Part shown: piece by piece, positions 6,361-19,319 of the stretch
Position numbering within the stretch: position 1 is the first letter of the stretch
Layout: the number at the start of each line of letters is the position of its first letter
IMG/VR virus record: IMGVR_UViG_3300020159_003558
Coordinates: 1 to 22,864 of that record
Strand: one strand, 5' to 3'
DNA from: a virus
DNA length: 22,864 nucleotides
Made by a program: the position numbers and the translations under genes
The notes under the pieces: generated by a model
Seen by the model: only the letters and a program-made list of their open reading frames with translations
Database searches by the model: none
Told to the model about the DNA's origin: nothing

Positions 6361-9300
6361 TTATCCTAAAGCTATTGATAATGCTATTGCATCATTTACT
6401 GTTGCCACTGGGGCACCATTGATATTTATGACCCCAGAAACTGCTACGTTTCCAGCAGTGATGTTGCCTGTTGCGCTAACTTGGCCACCAGTTGTGATGT
6501 TTCCACCACGAACGTTACCGGTAGCTGATACTAGACCAGCAGTGTTGACATTACCACCAACTACGTTACCAGTTGCACTTACAGTAGCACCTTGCACCAG
6601 TGCTACTGCAATTACATTACCACCAGTGATGTTACCTGTTGCAGTGATCAGTCCAGCTGTGCCAACATTACCACCTGTGATATTACCTGTAACAATTGCT
6701 GTTGTTGGTACCACTAGAGCGTTGACATTACCAGTGCTAGTTACTAGCAAGTTACCGCTGGCAACATTACCAGTTGCGCTCACGTTACCAGTTGAGCTCA
6801 ATACGGCAGCAGTTACGCTACCATCAACACCAAGGTTGCCAAGTACGTTACCGCTCAAGCTCAATGTAGAGCTAATCAAGTTACCGCCAGTTACGTTACC
6901 TGCTGCACTGAATCTACCAGCAGTAGCAAAGTTGCCACCAGTTACGTTACCAACAGCAGATACAAATCCACCTGTTGTAATATTACCACCTGCAACGTTA
7001 CCTGTTGCAGTAATTAACCCACCTGTTGTAATATTACCACCTGTGACATTACCTGTGGCTACAACTGCACCGGTTGTGTTCAAGTTTCCGCCAGCTACAT
7101 TTGCACCAGTTATATTACCAACTGCGCTAATAATACCACTTGCAGTAATGTTACCGCCTGCAATATTTCCAGAGTTGGTAGTAATGTTGCCTGTTGCACT
7201 GAGTGCACCAGCTGCTGTGATATTGCCACCGTTGGCTGTGCTAATTGGGCCGCCAACTGTAAACACATTACCAACACTGTCAAACACCAGGCCAGTTGAT
7301 CCAACAGTTGCGCCGCTATTGCTGAATAGAATTTGTGTGTTAGCAACAGATACAACAATGTTACCAATAAAGTTTGCACCACTAACATTACCAGTTGCTA
7401 CCACATTACCAGCTGTGGTTAAATTACCACCAATGATATTACCAGTTGCACTTATTAATCCACCTGTTAGTAAATTGCCGCCTGCTACGTTAGCAGTAGA
7501 TGTTACGTTACCAGTTGCAGTTATAAATCCGCTGGTTAAGAAGTTTCCGCCAATTATGTTTCCAGCAGCAGTTACAAGACCAGTTGTACGCAAGTTGCCG
7601 CCAGTTAAACTGGCTGTCACAACTGTGTTACCAGTAACATCAAATGATCCTAGAACAACACCGTTTCCAGATGCTGTAATACTACCAGCTGATACTAAGT
7701 TACCGCCTCTAATATTGCCAGTAGCTGACATCAAGCCAGCGGTGTTGATATTACCGCCTGTTACGTTGCCAGTTGATTGTATTGTACCAGTTGCAGTTAC
7801 TAAGCCGCCTGTGACTACGTTACCACCTGTTACGTTGCCTGTTGCAGTTACTAAGCCGCCTGTGATTAAATTGCCACTGGTAGTGTTACCAGTTACACTC
7901 AGTGTGGCCAGTGTGCCAATTCCTGTTGCCACAACATCTGTCAACTGACTACCGTTACCAATGAAGAATGGAGCAGTGACGTTGCCAGTTACGTTCAACG
8001 CACTAATAACATTGCCAGCCAAGCTAACATTTGTTGTGTTAACATTGCCGCTGATTACGTTGCCAGTAGCAGATACAAATCCACTTGTGAGTACGTTGCC
8101 AGCAATCACATTGCCAACAGCGCTTATGCTAGAACCAGAACTTTGACCATTTGCTCTCAATACAACTGCATTAACCGCGTTAGCAAAATCTGCTTGTCCA
8201 GTAACACCCAACGTGCCCAAGGCTGTTAACGCTGTGCTAGCAATAATATTAGTTGCAGTAACATTTGCGCCAGTGACATTGGCCACAGCAATTACGTTGC
8301 CGCCAGTAATGTTGGCCGTTGCATTAAGAGCACCAATAACGTTACCACTTACACTTAATCCGGTTACATTTAAGTTACCGCCACCAATGTTACCAGTAAC
8401 TGCTAGACTACCTAATGTGCCAACTGCTGTAATGTTTGTTTGACTTGCTGTGAGCAATGTACCAACAATGCCTGTTGCGGTTAAGTTACCGCCTGTGATG
8501 TTGCCAAACGCACTAACTTGACCTAGTGTTGTGATGTTGCCGCCATCAACGTTACCGGCTGCTAGTACTGCACCTTGAGCGCTTACTTGTCCGGTAGTGT
8601 TGATGTTACCACCAGTTACATTACCTACTGCACTTGCTGCTCCAGCTGAGTTAACTGTACCTGCTGTTACTGTGCTAGTAATGTTCAATGCACTAACAAC
8701 GTTACCACTTAGGCTCAAACCTGCAGCATTTAAGTTACCACTAGTAATGTTACCAGTGGCAGTAATCAACCCACCTGTTGAAATGTTACCACCAGTGATG
8801 TTGCCAGTTGCTGTTGCACTTGCAGCAAGTACAGCACCAGTTGCACTCACAATACCTGCGTTAACATTACCACCAATAATGTTACCAATTGAACTTACTA
8901 AGCCAGCTGTGTTGATATTACCACCAACTACGTTACCAGTGGCACTTACAGTAGCACCTTGTACCAATACTGTAGCAACTACATTACTTGCTGCAACGTT
9001 TGCAGAAAGTTGTGCACCGGTACCCACAAAATTAACACCTGCAATGTTAGCAGCACTTGTTATATTGCCAGTTGACCCAATGGATCCAGTTGTGAGTAGA
9101 TTGCCACCAGTGATATTACCTGTTGCAGTGATAGTTCCAGCATTTAATATTCCAGCTGTGAACAAATTGCCACCGTTGATGTTACCAGTTACGTCCAATG
9201 GACTCAGCACGTTACCAGTCAGGCTCAATCCTGCGGCATTTAGGTTGCCACCAGTGATATTACCTGTTGCACTAATACTTCCAGCATTTAATATGCCAGC

Positions 9301-12300
9301 TGTAAACAAGTTACCACTGGAGATATTACCAGTTACGTTCAATGGACTCAGCACGTTACCAGTCAGGCTCAATCCGTTGGCATTTAGATTACCACCAGTT
9401 ACATTGCCGCTTACACTTAAGGTAGTACCTTCAAGTGTACCAACAACAAATGTACCATAGCTGTTGACTGTTACTATTTCGTTGGCTATACTAACATCAC
9501 TGGCAGCAAATAGTTTACCAGTCAAGTCATCCCATCCAACAAACGCTTGTTTTTCTGTAGTATTAAAGTACCACATGTCCACGCCACGATCTTTTCCATC
9601 GTCGGCTACCAACGGAGTATTGTTTGGGCCTCGGCCCAATCCAATAATTGGATCTTCAATGCTAAGTGTTGACACGTTAATATAACTAATATTACCGTTT
9701 ATTGTTAAGTCTCCGCCAATTACAGCATTGCCAGTAGTGGTCAATGTTGTAGAATTTACACCGCCACTAGTATTGATATTACCAACTGCGGTAACAATTC
9801 CGCCAGTGATTAAATTGCCACTGGTAGTGTTACCAGTTACACTCAGTGTGGCCAATGTACCAATGCCTGTGGCAACTACACCTGTCAACTGAGAGCCGTT
9901 GCCAAAGTAGTAGGGTGCTGTAACGTTACCAGTTACATTCAATGCACTGATTACGTTGCCTGACAAACTAACGTTTGTGGTGTTAACATTGCCACCAGTT
10001 ATGTTACCTGTAGCTGATACTAAGCCAGCTGTGTTGACGTTGCCACCTGTTATGTTACCAATACCAGATACTGTTGATCCAGAAATAATAGCACCAGTCG
10101 CTGATACCAGACCAGCTGTGTTGATGTTGCCACCGTTGATGTTGCCACTTGCCGTGACAAGACCAGTACTGACGTTTCCACCACTGACATTTCCTGTAAC
10201 TGCAAGGCTTCCCAAAGTACCAATTGTTGTAATGTTAGGCTGGCTTGCTGTAAGAACCGTACCAATTACGTTGGCAGTAACGTTACCAGCTACGCTCAAA
10301 CCAACAGTACTAAATGTAGCCACACCGCCTGTACCAGCAACACCAACAGTGACGTTGCCCGAGCTTGCTACAGAAACATTTGATGTTCCATTAACAATTG
10401 ATGTTGGTGTGCCGCCTGCTGCAATACCAGTTAATTGAGATCCGTTACCAATGAAGAATCCACCAGTGATGTTGCCAGATGTGGATATTGGATTAGTTGC
10501 AAAAGCAGCCAAATTGGCTGCTACGTTGGCATTGCCATATGTTGCTGCCAGACCTGTTAGCAACGAACCGTTGCCAATGAAGAAATTACCAGAAACGTTT
10601 GCAGATGAAATAATATTACCAGCTGCTGATACTAGCCCGGCTGTTGTGACATTGCCACCAATCACATTGCCGGTGGCGCTCAATATTACAGAAGTAATTA
10701 CGTTAGCACCACTGATGTTGCCCAGAGAGCCAAGGGTTGTGATATTGCCAGCAGTGATGTTAGCAGTGGTTGTAATATTTGATGTGGTGTTGATTGCACT
10801 CACAACATTGCCACTCAGGCTCAATCCAATGGAATTTAGGTTGCCACCAGTGATATTGCCAGTAGTTGAAATTGGATTTGATCCAAGTGCAGCCAAATTA
10901 GCAACAACGTTGGCATTGCCGTATGTCGCCGCTAACCCAGTTAATAAGCTACCGTTACCAATGAAGAACCCACCAGCAACGTTGGCTGTGGTTGTGATGT
11001 TGGCTGCTGATACTAAAGCTGATACAACGTTGCCACTCAAACTCAATCCTGCGGCATTTATATTACCGCTTGTGACGTTACCTGTAACACCCAATGATGT
11101 TAATGTACCAACGCTAGTGATGTTAGTTTGAGCCGCAGTTGCTAAAGTACCAACAATGTTAGTACCACTTAGGTTGCCACCAGCAATGTTGCCTGTTGCA
11201 CTAATCAATCCTGCAGTATTAATGTTTCCACCAGTGACATTGCCAGTGGACGATACTAATCCACTTGTGTTGATATTTCCACCAACAACGTTGGCACTGG
11301 CACTGACTGTGGCACCTTGTACCAGTGAAGTAACAACCAAGTTACCTGCTAGAACGTTGCCAACTGTAACCACATTGCCTGACAAAACGTTGCCTTGAGC
11401 ACTAAGGTTGCCTAGTACTGCTAATACATTTGAATCTTTGTTGTAGGTCAATCCGCCTACAGCATCTGCATTGCCATTGGTATTGAATAGAACTTGTGTG
11501 TTTGAACCAGGAACAACAATGTTACCTGTGATGTTACCGGCAAAGTTACCAACAAAGTATCCAGCAGTGGTAATGTTACCTGTTGCCGACACTTGGCCTT
11601 GTGTGGTCAAATTGCCACCAGCTACGTTGCCTGTGGCTGCAACACTGGCAGGAGCAAATGCACCTGTTACTGATAAGTTGCCACCTGAAATGTTAGCAGT
11701 GGTAACAATATTGCCTGTAGCACTTACAATACCTGTGTTGACATTTCCACCTGTAATATTTGCCGTGGTTGTGATTGTACTTGTGGTATTGACTGCACTA
11801 ACAACGTTACCACTCAGACTCAAGCCTGTGGCATTCAAGTTACCACCTGCAATGTTAGCAGTGGTTGTGATTGCACTTGTGGTATTAATTGCGCTTAACA
11901 CGTTTCCACTCAAGCTCAACCCTGCAGTATTAACATTACCAGCAGTGATATTACCAGTTGCACTGACTCTAGCACTGTTGACATCGCCTGTGACATTAGC
12001 ATTGCCACTAGTTGATATGTTGGTCAATGTACCCACACTTGTGATTGCTGATTGAGTGCCTGTGGTTAATGTGCCAGCAATGTTGCCACCGCTGATGTTG
12101 CCAGTTGTGATAATGTTAGCTGTGTCTGTTCCAGAAGCTAGATAGTTTGCTACATCAGCATTGCCATAACTTGAAGCAACACCTGTTAAGAAAGCACCAT
12201 TACCTAAAATGTAATTACCGCTAACGTTGGCACCACTGACAATGTTACCCGACGCACTGATTACGCCTGTTACATATTCGCCTGTCGCAGCAAATGTAGC

Positions 12301-13125: not shown

Positions 13126-13132
13126 TATTTAT
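13126..13132 (-). promoter_or_regulatory. Late-promoter-like box before the giant fibre gene
   Basis: The minus strand reads CATAAATATAA, seven of eight to TATAAATA. It overlaps the stop codon of the 205-aa gene and lies 21 nt before the ATG of the 2247-aa gene, with AAAGGA at 13118-13113. Confidence 0.65.
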
Positions 13133-13746
13133 GGTACCACATTGAATGTTGATGAGGTAGGTACAGTAATAGACAAGCCACTTGGGATTGTCAATGGGCT
13201 AACCATCATTGCCGAGACATTGGCCTGGACTGTGATGTTAGCTGAGAGTGTTCTTGGAGTGGCAATAACGCCGTTTACAAATAGAGAAGTTCGACTTACA
13301 GTAACAACGTTACCGGTACCGTTGATACCAATAGTTACGTTGCCACCTGATGTTGAGATTGCTACGTTGGAGTTACCGTTAACAATTGCTTGGCCGTTGC
13401 CAGAGCCACCACTAATGCCAGTAAGCAAGGAACCATTACCAACAAAGAAGCCAGCATAAACAGTGTCAAAGCGTAAAGCTGTGCTACCTAGGTCGTACAC
13501 ATTATCAATGCTGGGAATAATTGCAGCATTGGCCTGAATACTCCCAACGCCATTGGGCTTGAGCACAATGTTTGTGTTTGTGGTAGTAGTTGTGATGGTG
13601 TTATTAGCAATTTGTATGTTGCTATTAACAGGACCGCTGGTCCAAATCTGCGTAAAGTTTTCGTTTACCGCATTAAACGCATCACGTAACGGTTCACCAG
13701 TTCCGTCATTTGCCGCTGCGCCAATATCAATGATCTGTTGTGTCAT
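13129..13746 (-). CDS. Short tail fibre module protein (205 aa)
   Basis: The N-terminus MTQQIIDIGAAANDGTGEPL followed by RDAFNAVNENFTQIW is a well-known phage fibre opening (compare 'INLGTAPNDGTGDPLRTAFxKINxNFTELY'). Next come a repeat-like stretch (NTITTTTTNTNIVLKPNGVG), 'YDLGSTALRFDTVYAGFFVG', the joint GNGSLLTGISGGSGNG and a compact beta end (GLSITVPTSSTFNVVP). Its 'NGNSNVAISTSGGNVTIGIN' segment matches the same module near the start of the 2247-aa fibre, so the two are probably related. The gene lies 69 nt after the 936-aa gene. Its GAGGA ribosome binding site lies in a hairpin with a late-promoter-like loop. Its stop codon overlaps the late-promoter-like box of the next gene. It is probably an accessory or proximal fibre part; the exact role is inferred. 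Confidence 0.8.
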   Translation of the reverse strand: MTQQIIDIGAAANDGTGEPLRDAFNAVNENFTQIWTSGPVNSNIQIANNTITTTTTNTNIVLKPNGVGSIQANAAIIPSIDNVYDLGSTALRFDTVYAGFFVGNGSLLTGISGGSGNGQAIVNGNSNVAISTSGGNVTIGINGTGNVVTVSRTSLFVNGVIATPRTLSANITVQANVSAMMVSPLTIPSGLSITVPTSSTFNVVP

Positions 13747-13756
13747 GTAGAATCAA

Positions 13757-13783
13757 GTCCTCTGGTTGTATTTACCAAAGGAC
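13757..13783 (-). promoter_or_regulatory. Hairpin masking a ribosome binding site, with a late-promoter-like loop
   Basis: On the minus strand GTCCTTTGG (13783-13775) pairs with CCAGAGGAC (13765-13757): nine pairs including one G-U. The loop is TAAATACAA, and GGTAAATA across its edge matches six of eight bases of TATAAATA. GAGGA in the 3' arm is the ribosome binding site of the 205-aa gene, 11 nt before its ATG. Confidence 0.6.
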
Positions 13784-13815
13784 GTTGATTGGGGATTTGC
13801 GGTGGGAGTTAGGTG

Positions 13816-16626
13816 TTAGACGCGGCCAACAACCATTTCGATTGTGCCAGAATTGCCAGTGAAATCTTGTAGTGATTTACCAATTATTGATCCTGGTTTA
13901 GGGTCTTGATCTGCTCTAGCTGTGCCATTCCCAGCACTTACTAGCATGTCACCTTTGACAATGTTGCCAGTGACGCTGACAGGCACACGACCTTGAAGTG
14001 CTACAACAGCAATATGTTCAGCATCCAGGCCACCATTCATCAAGTAACTAGGATTGGCACTAATTACACCTGCAATCTTGCGATCAGCATCTGTTGAACT
14101 ACGTGTAACTTCAGCTGATCCACCAAAGCTCACAACAGTACCAGGTGCATAATCAGCATCAGCTACATATTTTTCAGCCAAGTCAGCATATAGTGCTGTG
14201 GTTGCTGTGGCAAATAATCGGTTAAAGTAGTTTGAACTAGATCCAATATTACCAACTGCGTTGCCTGCACCATTAACAATAGCTGTGGCAGCAGCGCCAG
14301 AGTTGACTGTGAGTACGCCTGCTGTGGTCAAGTTACCACCAGTAATGTTTGCTGTGACTGCTAGACTACCAAGCGTACCAACACTAGTGATGTTAGTCTG
14401 AGCCGCTGTTGTTAGGGTACCAACAATGCTTGTGCCTTGCAAGTTACCAGAAGTTACGTTGCCGGTTACTGCTAAACTTGTTAGTGTACCAACACTCGTA
14501 ACATTATTTTGAGCGGCAGTAGTTAGGGTACCAACAATGCTTGTGCCTTGCAAGTTACCCGAGGTAATGTTGCCAGTGACTGCCAATGAACCAAGTGTGC
14601 CAACTGATGTAATATTGGTCTGGGACGCTGTTGTTAATGTACCAACAATACTTGTTCCTTGCAAGTTACCCGAGGTAATGTTGCCAGTGACTGCTAATGA
14701 ACCAAGTGTGCCAACACTTGTGATGTTTGTTTGAGAAGCAGTAATTAACGTACCAGCAATACTAGTACCATTTAAATTGCCGCCATTAATGTTACCTGTA
14801 GCTGATACTAAGCCAGCTGTATTGATGTTGCCACCGGTAATGTTACCACTTGCACTAATTGTAGTGCTACTAATATTACCAATCACAGTACCAATCAGAT
14901 TGCCACCTTGAATGTTGCCACTCGATGTAACATTGCCAGTAACTGCTAGACTAGTCAAAGTACCTACACTAGTAATGCTATTTTGTGTGGCAGTTGTTAT
15001 GGTACCAGCTAAACTAGTTCCGCTGACATTACCGTTGATGTTTATAGTGTATGTTCCAGACAAACGGTCAGAACTTACTGTGCCAGATGTGAGCGCTGTG
15101 GCGTTAATGTTGGTAGTAAGCAATGTACCAATGTTGGCAGTACCAGCAGTGGTAATATTGCCAGCTGTTACATTACCTGTTATACTTGCTAATCCGGTTA
15201 CATTTACGTTGGCTGCATTTACGTTACCTGTTGCACTAACTCTACCAACGAAGTCAGCACCCAGAGTGGACAGAACAATGATGTTACCAATACCGCCAAT
15301 ATCTGAATATATGTTGCCGCCAGAGCTTGCAACAGTCATTACTGATGTGCCGTTTGAAATTTGGTTAACCGCTGCATTTGAGAAAGCAGTAACGTTGGTA
15401 AGGAATGTACCATCACCAATGAAAAATCTATTGGTAGAAATATTGCCAGATGCACTGATAATTCCAGCGTTGCCATTGTTAATTGAAATGCTACCAGCAT
15501 TCAACACACCCGTTACAAATGCGCTGCCTCCAGTTACTAAGTTAGAGCCAGTTACGTTGCCCGCAGCACTAACGTTGCTTGATGCGTTCAAGATGCCTGT
15601 TGATATTACGTTACCAACACTGACATTGTTACCAGAGATGTTACCAGTCGCTGATACTATACCTTGTGTAATTAAATTATCACCAGTGATGTTACCAACT
15701 GCTGTGATTTGAGCATCACTAACAATGTTACCACCTCGTACATTTCCAGTCACAGTAATACCATCAGCACCACCTTGGAATCCACCTATAACATTTACGT
15801 TACCCCCGTTGATGTTGCCGCTTGCGCTAACAATAGCTGTATTAACATTACCACCGTTGATGTTGCCTGTGGCTGTTACTACGCCAGAAGATACTAAATT
15901 TCCGCTTGCCACGTTTGCAGCCGAGGTAATGTTTCCACTGACATATGCAGTACCTGTTACACCAAATGTGGTAGTTGGATTTACGTTAGCAATACCAACG
16001 TTGCCTGTTGGTAGAATTGTTACCACAACACCAGGTGATGCAGTTTGTCCAGTTAAAAATTCAATCTTGCTGTTACCAGCAGCATCTGTGTACGTGGCTC
16101 TAATAGCTGTGCTTACTCGTGCGCCTGGAGTTGATGTATCACCGGAAAACCATTCAACAGCACCAATTACAGTATTTGCAGTACCGGTTGTATCTGTATC
16201 TGTAAAACGTATAGTTGGTTGTGTTACACTTGAATCTCTTGTGATAAACACATTACCAGAGGTGTTGATATTTCCACCATTGACGTTGCCTGTAGCCGAT
16301 ACCACGCCAGCTGTGTTAACGTTACCGCCGGTTACGTTACCACTTACACTAGTTACACCAGTAATATATGCACCAGTATTAGCAAATACCAACACGTTAG
16401 CAACGCCTGTAACGCCTACCGTGACGTTTGAACCTGGTGTTGTAATATCAACGTTGGAGTTACCACTAAAAATTCTACTAACTGTCAAGTTACCACTTAG
16501 ACTAGTGTTACCAGTAACAGTAAGGTCGCCTATGATGTCAACACTTGTAGTTTGTAATGTGATACTGTCGTTGCCCGTGAGGGTTTGAACAATATAGTCG
16601 CCGTTGACACGTTTATAAGTAGACAT
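13816..16626 (-). CDS. Repeat-rich tail fibre protein (936 aa) with C-terminal chaperone-like domain
   Basis: The protein begins MSTYKRVNGDYIVQTLTGND and enters the same ~17-residue repeat as its neighbours (SATGNVNGGNINTSGNV). A globular insert near residues 122-232 carries TIRFTDTDTTGTANTVIGAV, EWFSGDTSTPGARVS and ILPTGNVGIANVNPTT, typical of phage fibre heads. Before the C-terminus there are four 37-residue repeats of the type GTSIVGTLTTASQTNITSVG. The last ~130 residues (LYADLAEKYVADADYAPGTV ... GRVPVSVTGNIVKGDMLVSA ... IGKSLQDF) match the end of the 1244-aa fibre and look like an intramolecular chaperone domain, possibly of the Peptidase_G2 type. The ATG follows the upstream TAA with no gap, an AAAGGA site lies in the upstream coding end, and a perfect T4 late promoter lies 17 nt before the start. 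This makes it the best-supported late fibre gene here. Confidence 0.87.
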   Translation of the reverse strand: MSTYKRVNGDYIVQTLTGNDSITLQTTSVDIIGDLTVTGNTSLSGNLTVSRIFSGNSNVDITTPGSNVTVGVTGVANVLVFANTGAYITGVTSVSGNVTGGNVNTAGVVSATGNVNGGNINTSGNVFITRDSSVTQPTIRFTDTDTTGTANTVIGAVEWFSGDTSTPGARVSTAIRATYTDAAGNSKIEFLTGQTASPGVVVTILPTGNVGIANVNPTTTFGVTGTAYVSGNITSAANVASGNLVSSGVVTATGNINGGNVNTAIVSASGNINGGNVNVIGGFQGGADGITVTGNVRGGNIVSDAQITAVGNITGDNLITQGIVSATGNISGNNVSVGNVISTGILNASSNVSAAGNVTGSNLVTGGSAFVTGVLNAGSISINNGNAGIISASGNISTNRFFIGDGTFLTNVTAFSNAAVNQISNGTSVMTVASSGGNIYSDIGGIGNIIVLSTLGADFVGRVSATGNVNAANVNVTGLASITGNVTAGNITTAGTANIGTLLTTNINATALTSGTVSSDRLSGTYTININGNVSGTSLAGTITTATQNSITSVGTLTSLAVTGNVTSSGNIQGGNLIGTVIGNISSTTISASGNITGGNINTAGLVSATGNINGGNLNGTSIAGTLITASQTNITSVGTLGSLAVTGNITSGNLQGTSIVGTLTTASQTNITSVGTLGSLAVTGNITSGNLQGTSIVGTLTTAAQNNVTSVGTLTSLAVTGNVTSGNLQGTSIVGTLTTAAQTNITSVGTLGSLAVTANITGGNLTTAGVLTVNSGAAATAIVNGAGNAVGNIGSSSNYFNRLFATATTALYADLAEKYVADADYAPGTVVSFGGSAEVTRSSTDADRKIAGVISANPSYLMNGGLDAEHIAVVALQGRVPVSVTGNIVKGDMLVSAGNGTARADQDPKPGSIIGKSLQDFTGNSGTIEMVVGRV
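14329..14772 (-). repeat. Tandem repeat, four units of 111 bp
   Basis: Units start at 14329, 14440, 14551 and 14662, each marked on the plus strand by CAAGTTACC, with a diverged continuation at 14773. Each unit encodes 37 residues of the type VGTLTTASQTNITSVGTLGS. The period is exact, with no indels, inside the 936-aa fibre gene. Confidence 0.92.
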
Positions 16627-17211
16627 TTAGAGATCCTTTGTGTTATTTATACGGTCTAAGAACTCTACCATGGGCATGGTCTGCATATTTGGTACTTTTG
16701 TAAATTCTGCAATTTCAGCAGTGGTATTACCATGCACTCTAATAAAGCGTACCAGCGGAAAATCTTTGGCCACTTGCACTAGTTGTCGTGCCCAATTACC
16801 AGTAAAAGTAGGAGTTGTTGCACTTTTTTTATAAAACTCAGTGTCTGCATACACATTGTTAAAATTATTGTTTACAGGTCCCATATCAAACCCCACAAGA
16901 TAAACAGATATAGCTCCATCAAATGCAGCGATACTAGCTGCAATAGGACCAGAGCTGTAGCCATAATATTTTTGAGGTACTGGATGGGCACCGTTACCTG
17001 CTATGGGTCGTCTTGTGTAGAATCTATTTTTTGCTGGATATCCAGAATCTTGTATTCTGGTACTGATTGGACGATCTGTGCTTACTAGTACCGTGGGCGT
17101 AAAATCTCTATACAGAGCATTACAGCCGTAGACTGGCCCACAATGTCTTAAATTTTCTAAATCTACCTGTTGTCGGCTTACGCCATTGCCTAATACAAAT
17201 GCTCTACTCAT
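16627..17211 (-). CDS. Rossmann-like phage protein, DUF115/MptE-like (194 aa)
   Basis: The N-terminus MSRAFVLGNGVSRQQVDLEN has a glycine-rich LGNG turn after a beta strand. It is followed by VYGCNALYRDFTPTVLVSTD, SSGPIAASIAAFDGAISVYL with VGFDMG, and NNVYADTEFYKKS...GNW. I recall this set in a conserved hypothetical family of marine T4-like phages. It recalls DUF115 or MptE-like proteins, some of which act in surface-glycan modification. A nucleotide or nucleotide-sugar function is plausible but no catalytic residue can be assigned. The start codon directly follows the T-run of a terminator, and its G-rich ribosome binding site is that hairpin's 3' arm. The stop directly abuts the next start. 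It sits next to a glycosyltransferase and upstream of the fibres, which fits a role in modifying glycans or virion proteins, by context only. Confidence 0.7.
   Translation of the reverse strand: MSRAFVLGNGVSRQQVDLENLRHCGPVYGCNALYRDFTPTVLVSTDRPISTRIQDSGYPAKNRFYTRRPIAGNGAHPVPQKYYGYSSGPIAASIAAFDGAISVYLVGFDMGPVNNNFNNVYADTEFYKKSATTPTFTGNWARQLVQVAKDFPLVRFIRVHGNTTAEIAEFTKVPNMQTMPMVEFLDRINNTKDL
16644..16651 (-). promoter_or_regulatory. T4-type late promoter TATAAATA
   Basis: The minus strand reads CCGTATAAATAACA, a perfect match to the T4 late -10 element. It lies 17 nt before the ATG of the 936-aa fibre gene, inside the end of the 194-aa gene, with AAAGGA between box and start. Confidence 0.8.
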
Positions 17212-18143: not shown

Positions 18144-18170
18144 AGTACCATACTGGAGTGTAAATACCCG

Positions 18171-19319
18171 ATGGATATCAATCAAATTATAGAGCAAGGC
18201 AATCAATACCGTGCCAACAATCAGCCCGAAGCAGCTTTACAGTGCTATGCCGAGGCCATGCGCATGGATCGTAATAGTTCTGCGGCGTTCAACAACTACG
18301 GCAATGTACTACGAGAAGTAGGCGAGCCCAAAGGTGCTGTACCTTTCTTAACAAGGGCAATGCAACTTGAACCTAAAAATGTTACTGCAAAATTTAATCT
18401 AGCAATTGCATACCTGTTGGATGGCAACTACGAACAAGGCTGGCCAGCTTATGAAACTCGCTGGGACTACGAGCATTTGGCTGGAACAATGCCTCCATTT
18501 TCCCAGCCGCGTTGGAAAGGTGAGGATCTTCGAGGCAAGACTATCTTGGTAGTTGGTGAACAAGGTCATGGAGATAACATACAATTTGTACGCTTCCTGT
18601 ACAACTTACATGTGATGGGCGCTGAAATTATTTTACAAGTAACTGATGGACTTGTGCCATTGTTAAGTGCAAGTAACATCATCAAACGGGTAAGTGGATA
18701 CGACTATACTGTAACAGATTTTGATTACTGGGTACCGATCATGAGTATTCCTGGAATCATTGGTGTCACTGCCACAAACTTGCCGCGGCCAGTTAACTAT
18801 CTTAATCCTGATGCAGCTTTGCAAAAGCACTGGCAAGATTACTTTGGATCAAAGACCAAAATGCGTGTGGGATTCAGCTGGAGTGGACGGCGAGACAACT
18901 GGCTCAACAAGCACAAGGGTATGCCTTTTGAAGACATGGTTGCTATGATTCAGGCTAACCCTGAGTATGAATGGGTAAACTTTCAAGCTGATTGCACACC
19001 AGAAGAAGAAGCCAAGCTACAAGAAATTGGTGTACACTGTTTGCCAGCCAACCCCAATATGTGGGCAGATGCAGCGGCACAAATGATGCATATGGATGTG
19101 ATTGTTAGTGTTGATACTGCTGTTGCACATCTTGCTGGCAGCTTAGGGCGGCCCACCTGGATCATGTTGAACTGGTTTGCTACAGACTGGCGCTGGATGT
19201 TGAATCGTGATGACTGTATCTGGTATTCAACTGCTAGATTGTTTAGACAGCCCAAGATGGATGACTGGGCAAGTGTAACCAAAAAAGTTAGTCAGTATCT
19301 TTCATGGTTCAAAGTGTAA
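18171..19319 (+). CDS. TPR-containing glycosyltransferase, GT9/heptosyltransferase-like
   Basis: Residues 1-100 form about three tetratricopeptide repeats (for example AALQCYAEAMRMDRNSSAAF and GAVPFLTRAMQLEPKN). A GT-B-type glycosyltransferase part follows: GKTILVVGEQGHGDNIQFVR near 122-141, RVGFSWSGR at 232-240, and the conserved acceptor/donor region VSVDTAVAHLAGSLGRPTWI at 312-331. It ends with DWRWMLNRDD...WY..ARLFRQP. This layout is standard in proteobacterial 'TPR-containing glycosyltransferase' proteins and suggests acquisition from a bacterium. It should transfer a sugar in the cytoplasm; acceptor and sugar are unknown, with host surface glycan or phage virion proteins as candidates. 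It is the only plus-strand gene here, with its own sigma70 promoter and terminator, so it is probably expressed earlier than its virion neighbours. Length (382 aa) is normal and the frame looks intact. Confidence 0.87.
   Translation: MDINQIIEQGNQYRANNQPEAALQCYAEAMRMDRNSSAAFNNYGNVLREVGEPKGAVPFLTRAMQLEPKNVTAKFNLAIAYLLDGNYEQGWPAYETRWDYEHLAGTMPPFSQPRWKGEDLRGKTILVVGEQGHGDNIQFVRFLYNLHVMGAEIILQVTDGLVPLLSASNIIKRVSGYDYTVTDFDYWVPIMSIPGIIGVTATNLPRPVNYLNPDAALQKHWQDYFGSKTKMRVGFSWSGRRDNWLNKHKGMPFEDMVAMIQANPEYEWVNFQADCTPEEEAKLQEIGVHCLPANPNMWADAAAQMMHMDVIVSVDTAVAHLAGSLGRPTWIMLNWFATDWRWMLNRDDCIWYSTARLFRQPKMDDWASVTKKVSQYLSWFKV

Follow-up and report, generated by a model that had tools for sequence, protein, structure and literature searches.

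A hairpin in front of a phage tail gene carries a late-promoter-like box in its loop and the ribosome binding site in its stem. This raises the question of whether it serves as a translation lock, closed in RNA that reads through from upstream and absent from RNA that starts at the box. In our estimate, the probability is about 85% that this is a promoter-in-hairpin lock of the kind found at T4 genes e and I-TevII, placed here on a tail-fibre/baseplate gene.

Anatomy of the hairpin and gene context

The window, i.e., the whole stretch of DNA studied, comprises 22,864 bases of the IMG/VR virus record IMGVR_UViG_3300020159_003558 and is a fragment of a virus genome. Its minus strand encodes T4-type head genes (Peptidase_S77/gp21-like and gp23), followed by tail-fibre genes. 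A DNA similarity search of the window against sequenced phages returned no match. The source is probably a freshwater relative of phage T4; here and below, the labels "freshwater" and "marine-like" are based on similarity rank and on which Rfam families turned up, and sample records played no part in them. At 6419-12055, the plus strand has long open frames (up to 509 aa) opposite the repetitive tail-fibre genes; they look like mirror artefacts of repeat composition rather than genes. The features of the locus are as follows.

13816..16626, minus strand: upstream 936-aa tail-fibre-like gene (phrog_22593)
13751..13790, minus strand: RNA hairpin of 16 bp, recognized by folding against shuffles and by conservation and covariation in relatives
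13768..13774, minus strand: late-promoter-like box TAAATAC with GG before it, in the hairpin loop and closing pair
13763, minus strand: predicted late transcription start, the 6th base after the box, inside the 3' arm, giving a 17-nt leader
13758..13762, minus strand: Shine-Dalgarno sequence GAGGA, wholly within the 3' arm and paired in the long RNA
13129..13746, minus strand: putatively controlled gene for a 205-aa protein (phrog_677, E 5e-9)

The phrog_677 match identifies the 205-aa protein as the N-terminal domain of T4-type baseplate wedge / tail fibre connector proteins. Its ATG at 13746 is separated by 69 bases from the stop codon of the 936-aa gene (13818-13816), the presumed origin of read-through RNA, and the hairpin begins 25 nt after this stop codon.

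The stem consists of 10 + 6 bp around a single bulged base (5' arm 13790-13785 and 13783-13774, bulge 13784, loop 13773-13767 with the sequence AAAUACA, 3' arm 13766-13751). Its minimum free energy (MFE) is -19.8 kcal/mol versus -6.8 +/- 2.1 kcal/mol for shuffled sequences (z -6.24), and none of 200 shuffles folded as well. The sequence-only reading had described a hairpin of 9 bp; the hairpin itself stands, while its size had to be revised to 16 bp, only the inner part having been seen. The same reading had rightly put a late-promoter-like box in the loop and a ribosome binding site in the stem: TAAATAC at 13774-13768 occupies the loop and the closing pair, and GAGGA at 13762-13758 lies fully inside the 3' arm. 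Re-measurement also reproduced its spacings, namely 22 nt from the hairpin box to the ATG of the 205-aa gene and 17 and 21 nt for the other two boxes.

The bare TAAATAC motif is not rare in the window (3 found versus 4.2 expected). What makes it significant is where it is placed and that relatives conserve it. The window box reads GGTAAATA and differs from the T4 consensus TATAAATA; further box sites, too, have GG in front of TAAATA. No Rfam family matched the hairpin, even at a relaxed threshold. In a 17-mer scan, every hairpin-bearing match preceded the same gene, and no match in an unrelated context had this stem with a Shine-Dalgarno sequence and start codon behind it. A first, permissive scan for boxes in loops was uninformative because control hexamers scored alike, and a stricter scan was substituted. 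It ranked the hairpin as the top TAAATA site in the window and in the related contigs G001, G006, and G008; this was not the case in G007, where the loop exceeds the size allowed by the scan. A few control hexamers elsewhere scored similarly, and stem strength alone is not unique genome-wide.

Late boxes in the window and in related phages

The sequence-only reading had called the box late-promoter-like. For the relatives, such a role of TAAATA is supported both by its enrichment upstream of genes and by the presence of a late sigma factor. In G001, a 300-kb relative with a gp23 98% identical to that of the window, TAAATA is the most enriched upstream hexamer (37 versus 11.2 expected), and it ranks near the top among the upstream hexamers in G006, G007, and G008. 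Among the proteins of G001 is a match to phrog_12791, "sigma factor for late transcription" (E 4.8e-74); a query with T4 gp55 found this protein together with counterparts in G002, G006, and G008. Sigma-70-like matches were at chance level. In T4 late promoters, the box lies about one turn before the start (PMC2988020). With this geometry, the predicted late start falls at about 13763, a position within the 3' arm that fits both the peak at 5 nt of the box-to-ATG distances and the 5' end of the freshwater-2 RNA described below. Further box-associated features of the window were identified.

16644..16651, minus strand: late box TATAAATA, 17 nt before the 936-aa gene, no comparable hairpin
13126..13132, minus strand: late box ATAAATA, 21 nt before a 2247-aa gene, no comparable hairpin
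18117-18028, minus strand: Rfam freshwater-2 RNA (RF02980), with a box at 18128-18123
18161-18173, plus strand: box site of the short-distance class (4-8 nt)

The freshwater-2 RNA extends from the predicted late start, 6 nt after its TAAATA box, to the ATG of a 256-aa gene. The layout is the same in L117 and L143; in L140 the gap is longer. Freshwater-2 RNA may be the leader of a late phage mRNA. Another Rfam family, the Polynucleobacter-1 RNA (RF01718), was found at L116:5569-5704 and L139:8051-8186, on contigs of T4-like phages.

The box-to-ATG distances are bimodal, with a sharp peak at 4-8 nt (mode 5), a second one at 16-26 nt, and almost nothing between. The short-distance class comprises 68 sites in G001 (L115-L129), G006 (L130-L138), G007 (L143-L147), G008 (L139-L142), and the window. 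At the modal distance, the predicted start falls on the ATG. A Shine-Dalgarno sequence is present at 2 of the 68 sites of this class versus 48 of 61 in the second class; of all box-bearing genes in these phages, about half combine a box-to-ATG distance of 4-8 nt with the absence of a Shine-Dalgarno sequence. The layout is kept by homologous genes across four contigs, and the 4-8 nt peak was absent in the T4 and S-CAM8 stretches checked. These observations suggest that the short-distance class represents leaderless late mRNAs; box geometry thereby points to a probable set of late genes without leaders in these phages. Late genes near 28744 in G001 and near 11985 in G008 may have another lock design, as their Shine-Dalgarno region (TATAGG or TATGGG) is able to pair directly with the box (CCTATAAATA).

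Conservation and covariation of the hairpin

In relatives of the 205-aa protein (44-88% protein identity), a box lies 18-24 nt before the ATG within a hairpin covering the Shine-Dalgarno sequence; the distance is 22 nt in about half of the closer, mostly freshwater-type relatives. The sequence-only reading had named a stem not conserved in related phages as one refuting outcome, and the hairpin is kept despite very different stems: AATCAACGTCCTTTGG in the window, TAATTCCTGAGTTATGG in L153, CCTTTGGGTTCTGG in L167, GTTTTCCCGC in L031, and ATCCTGG with a 14-nt loop in L026. Folding was weak in L175 and L033. The only invariant block in an alignment of 24 sequences is GGTAAATA. The loop length ranges from 4 to 15 nt across relatives and the box-ATG distance hardly varies, which fits a box that is read at the DNA level and spaced fixedly from the start.

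Covariation of the stem, which the earlier reading had proposed to check, was found in both alignable classes of relatives. In the first one, 89.8% of the cells are paired, four pairs have two-sided changes, and the score was reached by none of 500 shuffles; in the second, 83.8% are paired, five pairs have two-sided changes, and 1 of 500 shuffles reached the score. In both classes, the compensatory changes exceeded both controls. An alignment-free test, in which 5' arms were swapped between relatives, gave the same picture: across 31 clusters, own arms folded at -13.35 kcal/mol versus -8.63 +/- 0.49 kcal/mol for swapped arms (z -9.6, 0 of 5000), an average cost of ~5 kcal/mol. With the strictest redundancy cut (<50% identity, 16 clusters), z was -6.3. 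The test at first included L196 and L200, added by eye, and a rerun without both gave the same result. For 62 control late boxes from four contigs, swapping had little effect (own -6.21, swapped -5.78, 82 of 2000). The median MFE z score was -2.04 in the family versus -0.13 for these controls, and the unpaired probability of the Shine-Dalgarno sequence rose from 0.24 in long to 0.75 in short RNAs versus 0.49 to 0.55 in controls. Judged by these comparisons, the hairpin structure is kept by natural selection in the relatives.

The more distant, marine-like relatives have the box and mostly lack the hairpin (swap test, 293 of 2000); therefore, the lock is confined to some lineages. Where present, the hairpin is kept beside differing upstream genes (tail fibre, IscA-like, and sugar-transferase-like) that lie 33-94 nt away, which indicates that the element belongs to the downstream gene. 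In L045, L047, L200, and L067-L081, the upstream gene product resembles A-type iron-sulphur carrier (IscA-like) proteins in its ending, CGCGSSF or similar. G001 contains another, weaker copy of the hairpin (197431-197480, plus strand), again with a box in the loop; the 871-aa gene behind it encodes an N-terminal domain of the same kind (MVQQVINIG). This paralogue, at 197458, adjoins a divergent gene, so read-through is less likely there.

Proposed mechanism, alternatives, and the T4 systems

From these computed features we infer how the lock would work. Read-through RNA from upstream, carrying both arms, would fold and bury GAGGA, leaving the 205-aa gene silent. Because the 936-aa gene ends 25 nt before the hairpin, ribosomes finishing it should leave the stem unmelted. 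Late RNA polymerase with the phage gp55-type sigma factor would read the box in the loop and start at about 13763 within the 3' arm. The resulting short RNA, with the 17-nt leader and the Shine-Dalgarno sequence at its very start, would be translated. The earlier proposal that GAGGA is hidden in read-through RNA and free in the short RNA agrees with predicted folding: the unpaired probability is 0.00 in the long RNA, where opening the region from the Shine-Dalgarno sequence to the AUG would cost 14.8 kcal/mol, and 0.68 in RNA from 13763, with an opening cost of 2.3 kcal/mol. Predicted folding repeated this contrast in twelve relatives. That a transcript started at the loop would lack the 5' arm likewise follows from the box position and the predicted start.

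The purpose is less obvious. The 936-aa gene carries its own late box upstream, so the T4 rationale of blocking early read-through does not apply in a straightforward way; the anatomy suggested by the sequence-only reading for read-through from this gene holds, while the temporal purpose borrowed from T4 is not automatically transferable. The lock may keep out early read-through that comes from further upstream, or it may shield the gene from late read-through. A late-against-late insulator, by which the tail-fibre gene would not be translated off late polycistronic read-through RNA and would take its dose from its own promoter only, with no role in timing early against late expression, is a tentative idea that we hold to be somewhat doubtful. 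If true, it would mean that many freshwater T4-like lineages have retained such an insulator even as a different gene came to lie upstream.

Other explanations of the hairpin were weighed against the same data. A phage or host protein could bind the loop and stem as a translational operator, as T4 gp43 does on its own leader, with TAAATA as an RNA recognition motif; the box is invariant in the loop, and some gp43 operators have UAAC or UAAA loops (PMC3014915). This is improbable, since neither the loop length (4-15 nt) nor the place of the box in the loop is constant, in contrast to a largely conserved distance to the ATG, and TAAATA also occurs at similar spacing before hairpin-less genes and 4-8 nt before many ATGs. 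We give the same low credence to an RNA-processing site, at which an endonuclease would cut the A/U-rich loop of read-through RNA and free the Shine-Dalgarno sequence. A/U-rich single-stranded loops are typical RNase E targets, and a cut in the loop would yield the identical short RNA. However, processing leaves the recurrence of TAAATA upstream of hairpin-less genes unexplained, and the 4-nt loops of L153, L167, and L179 offer little single-stranded target.

An intrinsic terminator or attenuator between the 936-aa and 205-aa genes was rejected as highly unlikely. A consensus scan lists 13783-13757 as terminator-like, but it gives 5 sites in all versus 5.0 expected. No U tract directly follows the stem: the U-rich tail UUGAUU is the outer 3' arm, and L153 and L167 continue as AACCCAC and GGGACTTC, respectively. 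Equally unlikely is a hairpin that is a by-product of the sequence with no regulatory role, the box alone being important. Marine-like relatives and other late genes do manage without the hairpin, but the two-sided compensatory changes and the swap test argue against this explanation.

The promoter-in-hairpin lock can be compared with its T4 counterparts; reviews describe how the locks of e and I-TevII work (PMC3014915, PMC2988022). As in the window, T4 e, refolded here, has a TAAATA late box in the hairpin loop and the Shine-Dalgarno sequence in the 3' arm; its early long RNA is locked and its late RNA is free (PMC3014915). The late boxes of T4 e are two in number and lie 26 and 13 nt before the ATG, whereas the window hairpin has one at 22 nt. 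Moreover, the e lock stops early lysis, while the window lock would act on a virion tail gene whose upstream gene has a late box. The closest geometry is that of T4 I-TevII, with the box in the loop, the Shine-Dalgarno sequence in the 3' arm, and 18 nt to the ATG (refolded MFE -26.4 for a 90-nt segment). I-TevII, I-TevI, and mobE are homing endonuclease genes inside early/middle transcription units (PMC2988022), unlike the tail-fibre/baseplate gene of the window. Reviews also count T4 soc, 49, 25, and 26 among the late genes whose translation start regions are structured (PMC3014915, PMC2988022). In refolded gene 49, the box lies 5' of the main stem and not in the loop, unlike in the window. 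Of the T4 precedents given earlier (e, soc, 49, and I-TevI), refolding showed the box-in-loop layout for e, with I-TevII in addition, and not for 49. On the points that sequence can address, the window element appears to match T4 e and I-TevII, with a predicted start; the exception is the origin of its long RNA, which may be early or late.

A search in a library of non-subscription papers found no report of such an element at tail-fibre genes. The window lock is a new and well-supported case of a device that T4 is known to use. The good covariation evidence across freshwater phages makes conservation of the lock measurable. In T4, the promoter-inside-hairpin lock has been described for a handful of genes; here, it would occur in many diverged freshwater phages and at a virion gene.
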